Assembly: GCA_902587545.1 (NCBI GenBank)
Contig: CACILL010000001.1
Coordinates: forward strand, 460,022-524,021
Direction of reading: 5' to 3'
DNA: 64,000 bases
Source of the DNA: an uncultured SAR86 cluster bacterium
Lineage (GTDB): Bacteria; Pseudomonadota; Gammaproteobacteria; Magnimaribacterales; AG-339-G14
Shown: one piece after another, positions 34,879-38,805 of the stretch
How positions within the stretch are numbered: position 1 is the first letter of the stretch
Layout of the letters: each line of letters begins with the position of its first letter
The notes under the pieces: generated by a model
What the model saw: only the letters and a program-made list of their open reading frames with translations
Databases searched by the model: none
What the model was told of the DNA's origin: nothing
Made by a program: the position numbers and the translations under genes

Positions 34879-35767
34879 AGCAATTTCTCAATCTCAAAAG
34901 TTTCCAATATCTGGATACTTAAAGCTTACAAAACCCTCCATAATTTATTTGTTGGTTTTAACTGCTGCCACAGCAATGTTTTTGGCAGATGGGTTCGCCG
35001 GAGACTTATCCAGAGTTGTCTTTGGTCTTTTTGGAATAGCCTTAATCGCCTCATCCAGTGCAGTTATCAACCAAATTTTAGACGTTGAAATTGATAGCAA
35101 GATGGCAAGAACCAAGAATAGACCTTTAGTAAAAGGAGAAATTTCAGTTACCAACGCAAAAGTATTTTCTGGAATTTTGTTAGCCTCTGGAACGATACTC
35201 TTATTAATATTTAATAATATTTTGACTCTCTCATTGACTTTGCTTACTTGGGCTTTTTATTCTTTTTTTTATACGAAAATTCTTAAGTTTGCTGGTACGC
35301 AGAATATAGTTATTGGCGGTATCGCTGGTGCAATGCCTCCACTTCTTGGATGGACGGCAATTACTAATTCTATAGATGCTCTCCCTTTGTTGATGGTCTT
35401 AATTATTTTTATCTGGACGCCGCCTCACTTTTGGGCTTTATCCATTAATAGAAAAGAAGACTACATTGCAGCAAAGATTCCAATGATGCCAGTTATTAAA
35501 GGAACCGAGTATACAAAATTACAAATTGCACTTTACTCAGTTTTATTAGCTGTGATTTCGATATTTCCTTTTGCAACTGGTTATCTTGGTGGATTTTATT
35601 TCATAAGCGCAACAGTCTTAAATGCTGCCTTCATTGGTCTCGCAGTAGCGCTGATTTTTGACAAAAGCAACAGATTAGCTTTGCCTTTATTTCTTTACTC
35701 TATTGTTTTTTTAACAATATTGTTTATTTGTATGGCCCTTGATAAATTAATCCCAATTCAACTATGA
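34868..35767 (+). CDS. ctaB: Protoheme IX farnesyltransferase (heme O synthase)
   Basis: UbiA-type prenyltransferase that adds farnesyl to heme B. The 299 residues have the first Asp-rich motif NQILDVEIDSKMARTKNRPL near residue 70 and about nine membrane helices, with PPHFWALSI between two of them. The start is GTG at 34868, 11 bases inside ctaA. It is followed by the sco gene with an ATGA overlap. Confidence 0.96.
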   Translation: MNTEAISQSQKFPISGYLKLTKPSIIYLLVLTAATAMFLADGFAGDLSRVVFGLFGIALIASSSAVINQILDVEIDSKMARTKNRPLVKGEISVTNAKVFSGILLASGTILLLIFNNILTLSLTLLTWAFYSFFYTKILKFAGTQNIVIGGIAGAMPPLLGWTAITNSIDALPLLMVLIIFIWTPPHFWALSINRKEDYIAAKIPMMPVIKGTEYTKLQIALYSVLLAVISIFPFATGYLGGFYFISATVLNAAFIGLAVALIFDKSNRLALPLFLYSIVFLTILFICMALDKLIPIQL

Positions 35768-36402
35768 GCAATAATAAATCCATAAGAATAACCGTAGCTT
35801 CCTGCCTCCTTATCGTGTCGATGGTTGCAGGTCTTTTCGTTTACTCAACTATTGCGCCGAAAGAACTTACTGCAGAAGAATACAAACAAATAGGATTTTA
35901 TAAATTAGTCAGAACCAGACAAATTAATAGTTTTACACTCAATGAAGGAGATGCTGAGTTTTCAAATAATGATTTAATTGGCGCTTGGGACGTATTATTT
36001 TTAGGCTTTGCATCTTGCCCTGACATGTGCCCCATGACGATGAAAAAAATGGCAATGGCCAATAACAATTTATCAGAAGAAGTATCTTCAAAAGTAAACT
36101 TCAGAATGATTTCTGTTGATCCAGATCGCGACACTCCAGAAAAGATGCAGAAATATGCTGCGGCTTTTAATCCCGATTTCAAAGGAATTACTGGAGATAT
36201 TGAAGTTATTTATAGGCTCGCCACAGATTTAACCCTGCCTTTTGTTCCAGTAGTAGGATCTGATAACTCTAATTATGATATGGATCACAGTATGAATCTT
36301 GCCGTTATTGATCCGAATGGTAATTATTTTGGATTCTTTAAGTCGCCACATGCTCCAGAGAAGATGGCAGAAGTTCTTGAAAGCATTGTTACTTTCAACT
36401 GA
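35764..36402 (+). CDS. SCO1/SenC family copper chaperone
   Basis: Thioredoxin-fold protein that delivers copper to the CuA site of CoxB. The 212 residues have an N-terminal membrane anchor (about 8-28), the copper-binding FASCPDMCPM near 82-91 and the third ligand His in DMDHSMNL near 177. It closes the cox assembly operon. No terminator hairpin is visible before the following gene set. Confidence 0.95.
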   Translation: MSNNKSIRITVASCLLIVSMVAGLFVYSTIAPKELTAEEYKQIGFYKLVRTRQINSFTLNEGDAEFSNNDLIGAWDVLFLGFASCPDMCPMTMKKMAMANNNLSEEVSSKVNFRMISVDPDRDTPEKMQKYAAAFNPDFKGITGDIEVIYRLATDLTLPFVPVVGSDNSNYDMDHSMNLAVIDPNGNYFGFFKSPHAPEKMAEVLESIVTFN

Positions 36403-36448
36403 AGTTTTTCTTTCTGGTTCTCAAAAATAGAAAAATAATATATATTTA

Positions 36449-36467
36449 AATAAGAATAATTCTTATT
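36449..36467. promoter_or_regulatory. 19-bp palindrome resembling a Fur box
   Basis: The sequence AATAAGAATAATTCTTATT is a perfect inverted repeat of two 9-base arms around one base, ending 22 bases before the first ATG of the small membrane protein cluster. It matches the 19-base Fur consensus (GATAATGATAATCATTATC) at 13 positions. Iron regulation is inference; A/T richness makes weak matches easier, but the exact symmetry with internal G and C is less expected. Confidence 0.5.
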
Positions 36468-36489
36468 AAATTTTTTGGGAGAAAAAATC

Positions 36490-36885
36490 ATGGAAGAATA
36501 TCAAATATGGACTTTGTGGAGTTCTAATAGGATAGCTGATGGCTTAAACTTTGTTGCGACAGTTCTTTTAATTTGGCTTGCGATCAGAGTAGCTGCCGCT
36601 ACCAGAGCATCAGACGAGACTAATCTCTTTGGGAAGCTCGTCTCATCTGCTTTTGGGCTTGCTGTTTTAGGAGGTACTTTTATGCAATGGTCAAATGCTG
36701 TAACAAACTGGATCGTCACTGCAAGAAGTTTAGATGCTTTGGAAGACAAGTCTGAAACTGCACAAGGTTTTATCGATTTTGTTGGCACAACCGTTCCCAC
36801 AAACACACCAACTACTGGCGCTATGGTCTTATTAGTAATAGTAGCAATTATAATTTTAGGCAACATTTGGCTGCCAAAAAAATAA
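36490..36885 (+). CDS. Small triple-span membrane protein, paralogue A of three (unknown function)
   Basis: A 131-residue protein that I do not recognise. It begins MEEYQIWTLW, has hydrophobic segments at about 18-38, 50-72 and 109-128, and a polar loop between the second and third segments. ATG 36490 is preferred because GGGAG lies 9-10 bases upstream; an upstream TTG frame start lies in that ribosome-binding site. It is similar to the genes at 36909 and 37388, most clearly to the latter (MDEYQIW start, same spacing of helices). The product is probably in the inner membrane. No cofactor-binding motif is obvious. Confidence 0.88.
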   Translation: MEEYQIWTLWSSNRIADGLNFVATVLLIWLAIRVAAATRASDETNLFGKLVSSAFGLAVLGGTFMQWSNAVTNWIVTARSLDALEDKSETAQGFIDFVGTTVPTNTPTTGAMVLLVIVAIIILGNIWLPKK

Positions 36886-36908
36886 TATCTAACAACTAGG
36901 AGAAAATC

Positions 36909-37328
36909 ATGGAACAAATAGCATTCATAAATCAAAGTTTTATAGGCTTAATGCAACTTAGTGGCTTATTTTTAATTGCATACTTCATCCTCTTATGGAT
37001 GATGTTTAGAGGCGTATCTAATGCACATATTTATGGAGTAAATACTTTTGGGAAAGTCTTGCATACAGTTATTTCACTGTGTGTAGTTTCTTTTGTATCT
37101 GGTACTTATTCTTTTATCGCTTCATTGCTTAATAATTGGGCCTTATCTCTTTCTGAGTCAGGAGAAGAACTGAACGGAAGTTTACAAAATTTCGTAGATG
37201 TAACAGGAGCTACTCAATATATATCTCCAGGTTTAATACCTGCTGATCCTGTTGGAATAGTATTCATCTTAGCAATTTTAGTCGGCCTAATTGGTGGCAT
37301 GTGGACTGCCCCTGGACCTAAAGAATAA
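36909..37328 (+). CDS. Small triple-span membrane protein, paralogue B of three (unknown function)
   Basis: A 139-residue membrane protein of the same layout as its neighbours: helices at about 14-34, 48-70 and 112-132, and a polar loop containing NFVDVTGATQ that aligns with FVD in the other two. The first helix ends with WMMFRG, matching WVAFRA in paralogue C. A strong AGGAG site is 8 bases before ATG. It lies 23 bases after paralogue A with no hairpin between, so A and B are probably co-transcribed. It is followed by a strong terminator-like hairpin. Confidence 0.87.
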   Translation: MEQIAFINQSFIGLMQLSGLFLIAYFILLWMMFRGVSNAHIYGVNTFGKVLHTVISLCVVSFVSGTYSFIASLLNNWALSLSESGEELNGSLQNFVDVTGATQYISPGLIPADPVGIVFILAILVGLIGGMWTAPGPKE

Positions 37329-37337
37329 ATAATCACA

Positions 37338-37364
37338 GAGGGAGGCATTTGCCTCCCTTTTTTT
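37338..37364 (+). terminator. Terminator-like hairpin between paralogues B and C
   Basis: Stem GGGAGGC, loop ATTT, stem GCCTCCC, then seven T in a row (37340-37364). Only 23 bases separate it from the ATG of paralogue C, leaving no room for a promoter after the hairpin. It may act as a partial terminator or a transcript-stabilising end. Confidence 0.85.
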
Positions 37365-37387
37365 AATAAACAATTAAGGAGAAAAAA

Positions 37388-37792
37388 ATGGATGAATATC
37401 AAATATGGTCAAATATGAATAGCGGCCTTATTTCCAATGCAATATATTTTGCAGGAATAGCTTTTTTATTATGGGTTGCTTTTAGAGCCGCAAACCAAAT
37501 GAGAGCAGAGGATGCTGGAGTATTGAACAAAACTCTTGTGTCCTTATTTTCATTGGGGATTATTTTTAATGGTCTTTTTACAGGAGCTATTGCTTTTCAA
37601 ATTATAGAGGGAACTGCTTATAGTCTTTCACAGCTTGAATCAATGAGCGCCTATTCACAAGCTTTTGTTGATGCTTATGACGCAACTCCACCAGAAGCCG
37701 GGACGAATGTTTTTACTGCTAATCCAATTAATACAGGATGGTGGCTTGTCATCACAGTAATGATTTTTGGTAGGATTTGGACTAAAGCCTAA
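37388..37792 (+). CDS. Small triple-span membrane protein, paralogue C of three (unknown function)
   Basis: A 134-residue protein starting MDEYQIWSNMNSG, closely matching the start of paralogue A. Helices lie at about 16-34, 48-70 and 115-132, with LLWVAFRAANQM after the first. The polar loop contains SQAFVDAYDATPPEAG. The ribosome-binding site AAGGAG is 8 bases before ATG. Its expression must come from read-through of the preceding hairpin or from a promoter inside paralogue B. The gene ends at a second hairpin almost identical to the first. Confidence 0.88.
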   Translation: MDEYQIWSNMNSGLISNAIYFAGIAFLLWVAFRAANQMRAEDAGVLNKTLVSLFSLGIIFNGLFTGAIAFQIIEGTAYSLSQLESMSAYSQAFVDAYDATPPEAGTNVFTANPINTGWWLVITVMIFGRIWTKA

Positions 37793-37802
37793 AAGCAGAC
37801 CT

Positions 37803-37835
37803 AAAAAAAGGGGAGGCTTTGCCTCCCTTTTTTTT
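37803..37835. terminator. Bidirectional terminator between paralogue C and quinone oxidoreductase
   Basis: Stem GGGAGGC, loop TTT, stem GCCTCCC (37811-37827), flanked by seven A on the left and eight T on the right, so it can end transcripts from both sides of this convergent gene pair. The stem is identical to that of the hairpin at 37340. Confidence 0.92.
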
Positions 37836-38805
37836 ATATCTCAATTACAACTTTTCCAGTAGCAGTTCTATCCTCTAAAGATTTTATTGCCTCAACAGCT
37901 TGGTCCAAAGAGTAGCTTTTGGTAATTTCTGGTTTTAATTTGCCTTCACTATGCAAAGCAAATAATTCTTCGAAGTTTTTGGCATTTTCTTCAGGTTCTC
38001 TGCCGGTAAAGCTTCCCCAGAAAACACCAACTATTGAGCACCCTTTTAAAAGAGCTAGATTTGTTGGAACTTTAGGAATTCCTGCAGGGAAACCGATAAC
38101 CAATACTCTGCCTTTCCAGTTTACACATCTCATGCATTGTAAAAAGATATCTCCACCGACAGCATCATAAATAACGTCTGCTCCTAAGCCATCAGTTAAT
38201 TCTTTCACCTTCTCTTTTAGTTCGCCATCGCCATAGTTCACTAACTCGTCAGCACCTAATCTTTTTGCAATATCTAATTTTTCTTGGTTACTAGCAGCAG
38301 CTATAACTCTAGCACCCATTGCCTTACCAATTTCTATAGCAGTTGTTCCAACTCCGCCTCCTGCTCCAGTTACTAATAGTGTTTCGCCTTTCTTTAATTC
38401 TCCCCTTTGCTTCAAAGCATAGTAAGTCGTTCCATAATTTAAAGGAAAAGCAGCGCCATCTTTAAAATCCATTGACTCAGGTAACGGCATTAAAGTAGCT
38501 GCATAAGCAGATGTTTTTTCTGCTATCCCGCCATTACCGACCATTGCAATCACTCGGTCTCCTTCTTTCCAATCAGCTACACCTTCGCCTACCTCAGAAA
38601 TTACTCCAGCAATCTCACCTCCTGGAGAGAAAGGAAAGGGCGGCTGAAACTGATACTTTCCTTGTACGATTAAGACATCTGGAAAACTTACCCCAGCAGC
38701 TTTGACATCAATCACAACCATTCCTGGTTCTGCTCTGGGATCTTCTATTTCTTCTACTTTATGTGAATCTACGGGACCAAATTCTCTACAGACGTATGCT
38801 TTCAT
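37834..38805 (-). CDS. NADPH:quinone oxidoreductase family protein (zinc-less MDR)
   Basis: A 323-residue medium-chain dehydrogenase/reductase without the catalytic zinc ligands, as in quinone oxidoreductases and related enoyl reductases. The cofactor motif is GAGGGVGTTAIEIGKAMGA near residue 147, with DAVGGDIF near 215. The N-terminal GroES-like domain includes FPFSPGGEIAGVI. The likely role is NADPH-dependent reduction of quinones or activated alkenes; the substrate cannot be told. It stands alone, downstream of gshA on the same strand. Confidence 0.93.
   Translation of the reverse strand: MKAYVCREFGPVDSHKVEEIEDPRAEPGMVVIDVKAAGVSFPDVLIVQGKYQFQPPFPFSPGGEIAGVISEVGEGVADWKEGDRVIAMVGNGGIAEKTSAYAATLMPLPESMDFKDGAAFPLNYGTTYYALKQRGELKKGETLLVTGAGGGVGTTAIEIGKAMGARVIAAASNQEKLDIAKRLGADELVNYGDGELKEKVKELTDGLGADVIYDAVGGDIFLQCMRCVNWKGRVLVIGFPAGIPKVPTNLALLKGCSIVGVFWGSFTGREPEENAKNFEELFALHSEGKLKPEITKSYSLDQAVEAIKSLEDRTATGKVVIEI

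Follow-up and report, generated by a model that had tools for sequence, protein, structure and literature searches.

Orphan immunity arrays such as the AID-1 and rAID loci of Bacteroidales are runs of co-oriented short genes whose content varies through gain and loss between relatives and beside which no cognate toxin is recognised, and an excess of amino-acid change has been reported for the rAID immunity genes (PMC12247911). The immunity proteins of class II microcins are small inner-membrane proteins with few helices and a median length of 82 aa (PMC10233263), while the iron-stress genes of Fur regulons are marked by a palindromic Fur box at their promoter, with the motif AATGAgAATcATTctCATT in Xanthomonas (PMC1790865) and, in Acinetobacter, a set of boxes that includes forms close to the one considered here (PMC3055841).

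The locus that we compare with these systems lies in a 64,000-nucleotide stretch of DNA (the window) from a SAR86 genome available as 11 contigs (G000, 1.13 Mb, 85% complete), and is best explained as a site, repressed by Fur, at which genes for small and interchangeable inner-membrane proteins are exchanged. Few bacterial groups are as common in the surface ocean as SAR86. The array holds three genes, named A, B and C, whose positions are given in Table 1 with those of the neighbouring features.

Table 1. Features of the array and of its borders, in window positions.
Feature	Position	Strand	Description
SCO1-like oxidase assembly gene	35764-36402	+	left border
-10-like hexamer TATATT	36441-36446	+	weak consensus match, not above chance alone
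Candidate Fur box AATAAGAATAATTCTTATT	36449-36467	.	core TAAGAATAATTCTTA at 36451-36465
Gene A	36490-36885	+	131 aa, three-helix membrane protein, subfamily c10
Gene B	36909-37328	+	139 aa, three-helix membrane protein, subfamily c0
Terminator-like hairpin between B and C	37337-37360	+	stem GGAGGC...GCCTCC at 37341-37356
Gene C	37388-37792	+	134 aa, three-helix membrane protein, subfamily c2
Terminator-like hairpin common to C and the convergent QOR	37811-37827	.	stem GGAGGC...GCCTCC at 37812-37826
Quinone-oxidoreductase-family gene (QOR)	37834-38805	-	right border, convergent to the array

The three proteins had been taken for paralogues with a common three-helix layout in a preliminary description of this DNA, and both points hold: BLASTP links A to C (33% identity, E 5e-16), B to C (28%, E 2e-7) and A to B (24%, E 3e-7), and AlphaFold2 models C with a mean pLDDT of 92.3 (helices at residues 3-40, 45-81, 88-97 and 113-131) and A with the same layout and a mean pLDDT of 95.2. 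The short motifs listed in that description are likewise present, with FID in A and FVD in B and C, the starts MEEYQIW in A and MDEYQIW in C, and the W..FR pattern as WMMFR in B and WVAFR in C (WLAIR in A). Few positions are conserved across an alignment of 35 sequences, in which M1, K48 and W131 (numbering of C) never vary and W29, R33 and F93 hardly do, and the helices of family members contain no conserved His, Cys or charged residue. The loop between helices 2 and 3 is acidic, with on average 5.1 D+E for 0.8 K+R. Judged from these charges, the short interfaces around R33 and K48 would be cytoplasmic and the acidic loop outside, which would put both the N-terminus and the loop on the periplasmic side of the membrane and the C-terminus on the cytoplasmic side.

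Family members were detected in 40/40 genomes of the same GTDB family with a single-sequence query, and in 143 of the 199 genomes of the order with a profile search. Four of the 369 genomes of a class-wide sample were positive, all of them from the SAR86 order, and a sample of 399 genomes of the phylum returned two, namely the genome of origin and one weak 60-residue match no larger than chance alone should yield across that number of genomes; the family was thus found here only in the SAR86 order. Profiles of Pfam and NCBIfam gave no family match above cut-off, in agreement with the preliminary remark that the proteins match no known oxidase subunit. PADLOC defence models matched none of 41 members, a sequence search of the PDB gave no accepted match, and nothing was found at E <= 0.001 by fold, either in the PDB (queries C and A) or in a viral fold library (query C), these fold searches covering the PDB and one viral library. 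Two stray PHROG matches (E near 0.005-0.01) concern one member each, and open-access papers yielded no description of the family.

Three candidate identities were set aside. The likeness to CvpA, the Colicin V production protein (PF02674), is faint: it appears in 6 of the 41 members at 13.6-19.5 bits, below the gathering cut-off of 29.3, the matched stretch of the profile differs from one member to another and the registers disagree, so that the SAR86 proteins are not members of that family. A cytochrome oxidase subunit was rejected on the same Pfam and NCBIfam searches, linkage to oxidase genes being restricted to one SAR86 family. As for phage cargo, C (tblastn) was unmatched in phage records, and B and C were unmatched on the viral contigs scanned.

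The placement of the array after oxidase-assembly genes, already pointed out in the preliminary description, is a fixed property of the window's SAR86 family: SCO1 lies upstream wherever the contig extends that far, the convergent QOR comes next after the array in all 40 genomes, and gshA is mostly found beyond it. In one genus (g3), SCO1 and the array are often separated by an unrelated ORF; in several genomes of that genus (L114:1840-2994 and relatives), a 384-aa ORF of unknown function occupies this gap. Between the SCO1 and QOR borders, content varies widely. Arrays comprise one to four genes drawn from about 13 subfamilies (clusters at 55% identity), of which none is universal among the 40 genomes. 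The c10-c0-c2 combination of the window recurs in a single other genome (G025, hence 2/40), other genomes carrying c7-c3, c0-c3, c8-c2, c9-c2-c8, c10-c0-c3-c4 and further sets, and two genomes keep one gene within intact borders (c3 in G029, c0 in G030). Where present, c1 and c10 (the type of gene A) always come first. The fixed three-gene complex initially envisaged is not supported: the single-gene arrays and the lack of a universal subfamily speak against a hetero-complex of obligate partners and favour variants that can function independently of one another. Absence from related genomes had been named as what would count against that idea, and it applies to the A-B-C set, missing from most relatives, but not to the family, present in all of them.

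Outside the window's SAR86 family, members occupy other, unrelated loci, which leaves a functional tie to the oxidase unsupported. A fourth, diverged member is present in the window genome itself (L074:6315-6758; contig C2, 61329-61730); an alpha/beta-hydrolase-like gene follows it immediately on the same strand, and it has no Fur box. In another SAR86 family (f2; L155, L157, L159 and L160), a second variable site with one to three, sometimes divergent, genes adjoins glutathione-S-transferase-like and quinone-oxidoreductase-like genes, and Fur-like boxes are present there. In G010, one frame (L115:2951-4351) begins as the GshA-like protein and continues as a c5 member, of which the last two thirds are present; it corresponds to a deletion or an assembly chimera. 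No recombinase is encoded in the arrays of genera g1, g2 and g4, where every ORF of at least 120 aa lying from SCO1 to QOR either belongs to the family or is an antisense overlap, and no toxin was recognised by eye near the copies at the loci read.

How this variation arises can be read from pairs of genomes in which cassettes and flanks have different ages. In G026 and G034, the array DNA is 93-100% identical, against 60-87% for both flanks, and dS is 0.08 for the cassette against at least 1.5 for flank genes; two cassettes shared by G009 and G011 similarly show a dS of 0.04-0.09 against 1.1-2.9. The reverse situation is found in the near-identical pair G008/G013, in which one gene is 69-76% identical within surroundings at 94-100%. 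Overall, a young cassette in old flanks was found in 6 comparisons and a diverged cassette in young flanks in 16, these comparisons not being mutually independent. Within subfamilies, the median pN/pS is 0.067, and each subfamily is under purifying selection. Because this value falls inside the range of the flank genes (0.03-0.11), variation arises by replacement and not by fast point change. The anatomy of the array and the exchange of its cassettes are the part of this work in which we have the greatest confidence. Such exchange proceeds between species through recombination in the flanks, and the borders of the moved cassettes are sharp. At the border itself, the QOR of G023 and G033 is 94% identical between genera, versus 52-61% for other flank genes, as if it were travelling with the cassettes.

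The two hairpins with GGAGGC...GCCTCC stems noticed earlier after B and C are indeed present, each stem pattern occurring exactly once in the window (chance 0.04-0.05). They may reflect the duplication of a gene-plus-terminator unit, as first suggested, but similar GGAGGC-type, G-rich stems follow most genes of the locus in other genomes, and they are better seen as the usual ending of a gene than as proof of a recent duplication. These stems may tune read-through to the later genes. Ribosome-binding sites (GGGAG/AGGAG) precede all three genes, as reported. Codon use gives a mixed picture of the high expression suggested on that account, adaptation towards ribosomal genes placing C at the 92nd, B at the 82nd and A at the 36th percentile of the window ORFs.

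The box AATAAGAATAATTCTTATT at the array promoter is a perfect 9-1-9 palindrome directly 3' of the TATATT hexamer, and a TATA.T hexamer is found 5' of the box in many relatives. The Fur-like character attributed to it from one sequence becomes far stronger by comparison, as the window copy is a weaker version (2 mismatches) of a palindrome of the order, TGAGAATNATTCTCA, located 35-49 bases upstream of where translation of the first gene starts in genera g1, g2 and g4. Allowing up to two mismatches to TGAGAATNATTCTCA, a level that shuffled promoters reach in about 0.1% of cases, the box is present at the array promoter in 30 of the 31 genomes of these three genera (29 by script, plus G019, whose copy TGAGAATTAATCTTA counts once a start codon set too far upstream is corrected). 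It has been lost in G025, the near relative of the window genome, and is found in 0/9 genomes of genus g3.

The same motif was searched for across eight genomes with one mismatch allowed. Away from the array, three genomes have a site flanked by the genes of an FTR1-type permease and a TonB receptor, two have one upstream of a ferritin-like gene, and one has a site flanked by an iron-binding-protein-like gene and a TonB-receptor gene. A few further sites lie within or next to unrelated genes; the reversed pattern, used as a control, gave no hit. These iron genes were named from their sequences, FTR1 being confirmed by Pfam in G000 and G006. One Fur protein is encoded, and the published Xanthomonas box is the same motif as the SAR86 palindrome. 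On these sequence grounds the array is very probably under Fur control: when iron is sufficient, Fe-Fur would sit at the transcription start and keep the array off, and iron starvation would turn it on. Such control is not universal, the box being missing from g3 arrays and from many of the copies in other SAR86 families; in two of these families, Fur-like boxes accompany several members at their separate loci.

What might such a locus do? The scheme that we put forward, tentatively, is a protective role during iron starvation in which specificity changes from one cassette to the next. The proteins would act singly or as homo-oligomers, all variants doing the same basic job with different recognition targets, and a cassette swap would amount to a specificity swap. 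That job may be to shield the inner membrane from toxins or phages entering by the siderophore/TonB route once iron starvation has opened it, much as immunity proteins do. SAR86 bacteria have many siderophore-type TonB receptors, and the receptor FepA also serves as a route for colicins (PMC11582366). The acidic loop and the ligand-free helices suit recognition better than metal transport, and the single-gene arrays of G029 and G030 indicate that one gene can suffice. Several observations go against protection: no toxin is recognised beside the array, the C39 microcin exporter (PF03412) is found in 0/40 genomes, and the defence library matched none of the 41 members searched with PADLOC; purifying selection prevails and no excess of amino-acid change is seen such as has been reported for rAID immunity genes, immunity genes are not usually carried by all genomes of a family, and the boxless copies of g3 and of other SAR86 families would escape the coupling to iron.

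A close rival, which we consider somewhat unlikely, holds that the proteins are an inner-membrane step, or a partner, of iron or siderophore uptake in starvation, with variants matched to iron sources. The Fur box at the array promoter and the wealth of siderophore receptors in SAR86 (PMC11582366) would both fit, as would the fact that any one variant suffices. Within the window's family, the siderophore permease FecCD is rare (5/40) and FTR1 is found in 19/40, although siderophore-type TonB receptors are common. The array, in contrast, is present in 40/40, and two near-complete genomes (G027 and G034) show neither transporter; many of the genomes are incomplete, and these counts cover FecCD and FTR1. 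No step need be missing, however, as FbpA-like iron transport occurs in some genomes, and against uptake speak helices devoid of any conserved metal ligand or charged residue and the lack of Fur control in genus g3 and in many copies elsewhere in the order. Quite improbable, in our view, is that these are housekeeping membrane proteins used as a docking site by phages or toxins, cassette exchange being the means of escape. At least one copy is always present and any variant suffices, each variant is conserved and replacement is frequent, all as expected of such a target, but there is no known phage or toxin partner, scans of viral contigs with B and C turned up no relatives, and the idea leaves the maintenance of several variants together in one genome unexplained. 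Least probable of all would be accessory subunits or membrane partners of cytochrome oxidase or of another respiratory complex, adjusted when iron is scarce. The fixed site after the coxB-to-SCO1 genes speaks for this in one SAR86 family, and Fur control would be appropriate for an iron-rich enzyme. Against it, members lie at unrelated loci outside that family, the fourth copy of the window genome is located elsewhere, the array has its own promoter and Fur box, cassette turnover is unlike that of oxidase genes, and haem or copper ligands are lacking.

It is conceivable, though we would stop short of expecting it, that these proteins represent an undescribed, SAR86-restricted class of three-helix proteins carried by iron-repressed, swapped cassettes, and constitute either a new iron or siderophore importer replacing the mostly missing FecCD, or an iron-coupled immunity guarding the TonB route. 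If the variants were immunity or target alleles, the locus could readily serve to mark antagonism that goes unseen in the open ocean, and if uptake were true, a new type of transporter would operate in a group that mostly lacks the usual siderophore permease. Both readings are testable, as a SAR86 isolate now exists (PMC11582366); the isolate HIMB1674 is from a SAR86 family other than that of the window, in which the box-bearing array genomes lie.

Compared with known systems, the SAR86 array shares with Fur-regulon iron-stress genes a palindromic box at its promoter, and these organisms carry the same motif at FTR1, TonB-receptor and ferritin-like genes, but it differs from them in that the function of the encoded family is unknown and its variation comes from cassette exchange. 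Its members recall class II microcin immunity proteins in being small inner-membrane proteins with few helices; they are usually longer, at about 126-150 aa against the median of 82 aa (PMC10233263), no adjacent microcin gene is recognised and no C39 exporter accompanies them, and different paralogues stand side by side. With AID-1 and rAID it has in common the co-orientation of short genes, a variable content gained and lost between relatives, and the lack of a recognised cognate toxin nearby. Unlike them, it is built from a single membrane-protein family with no recombinase in the array, occupies one fixed chromosomal site in 40/40 genomes of a SAR86 family, and combines probable Fur control with purifying selection. 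Although some of its defining features are thus not found here, the orphan immunity array (PMC12247911) is the nearest known pattern, and the one whose form the SAR86 locus most resembles.
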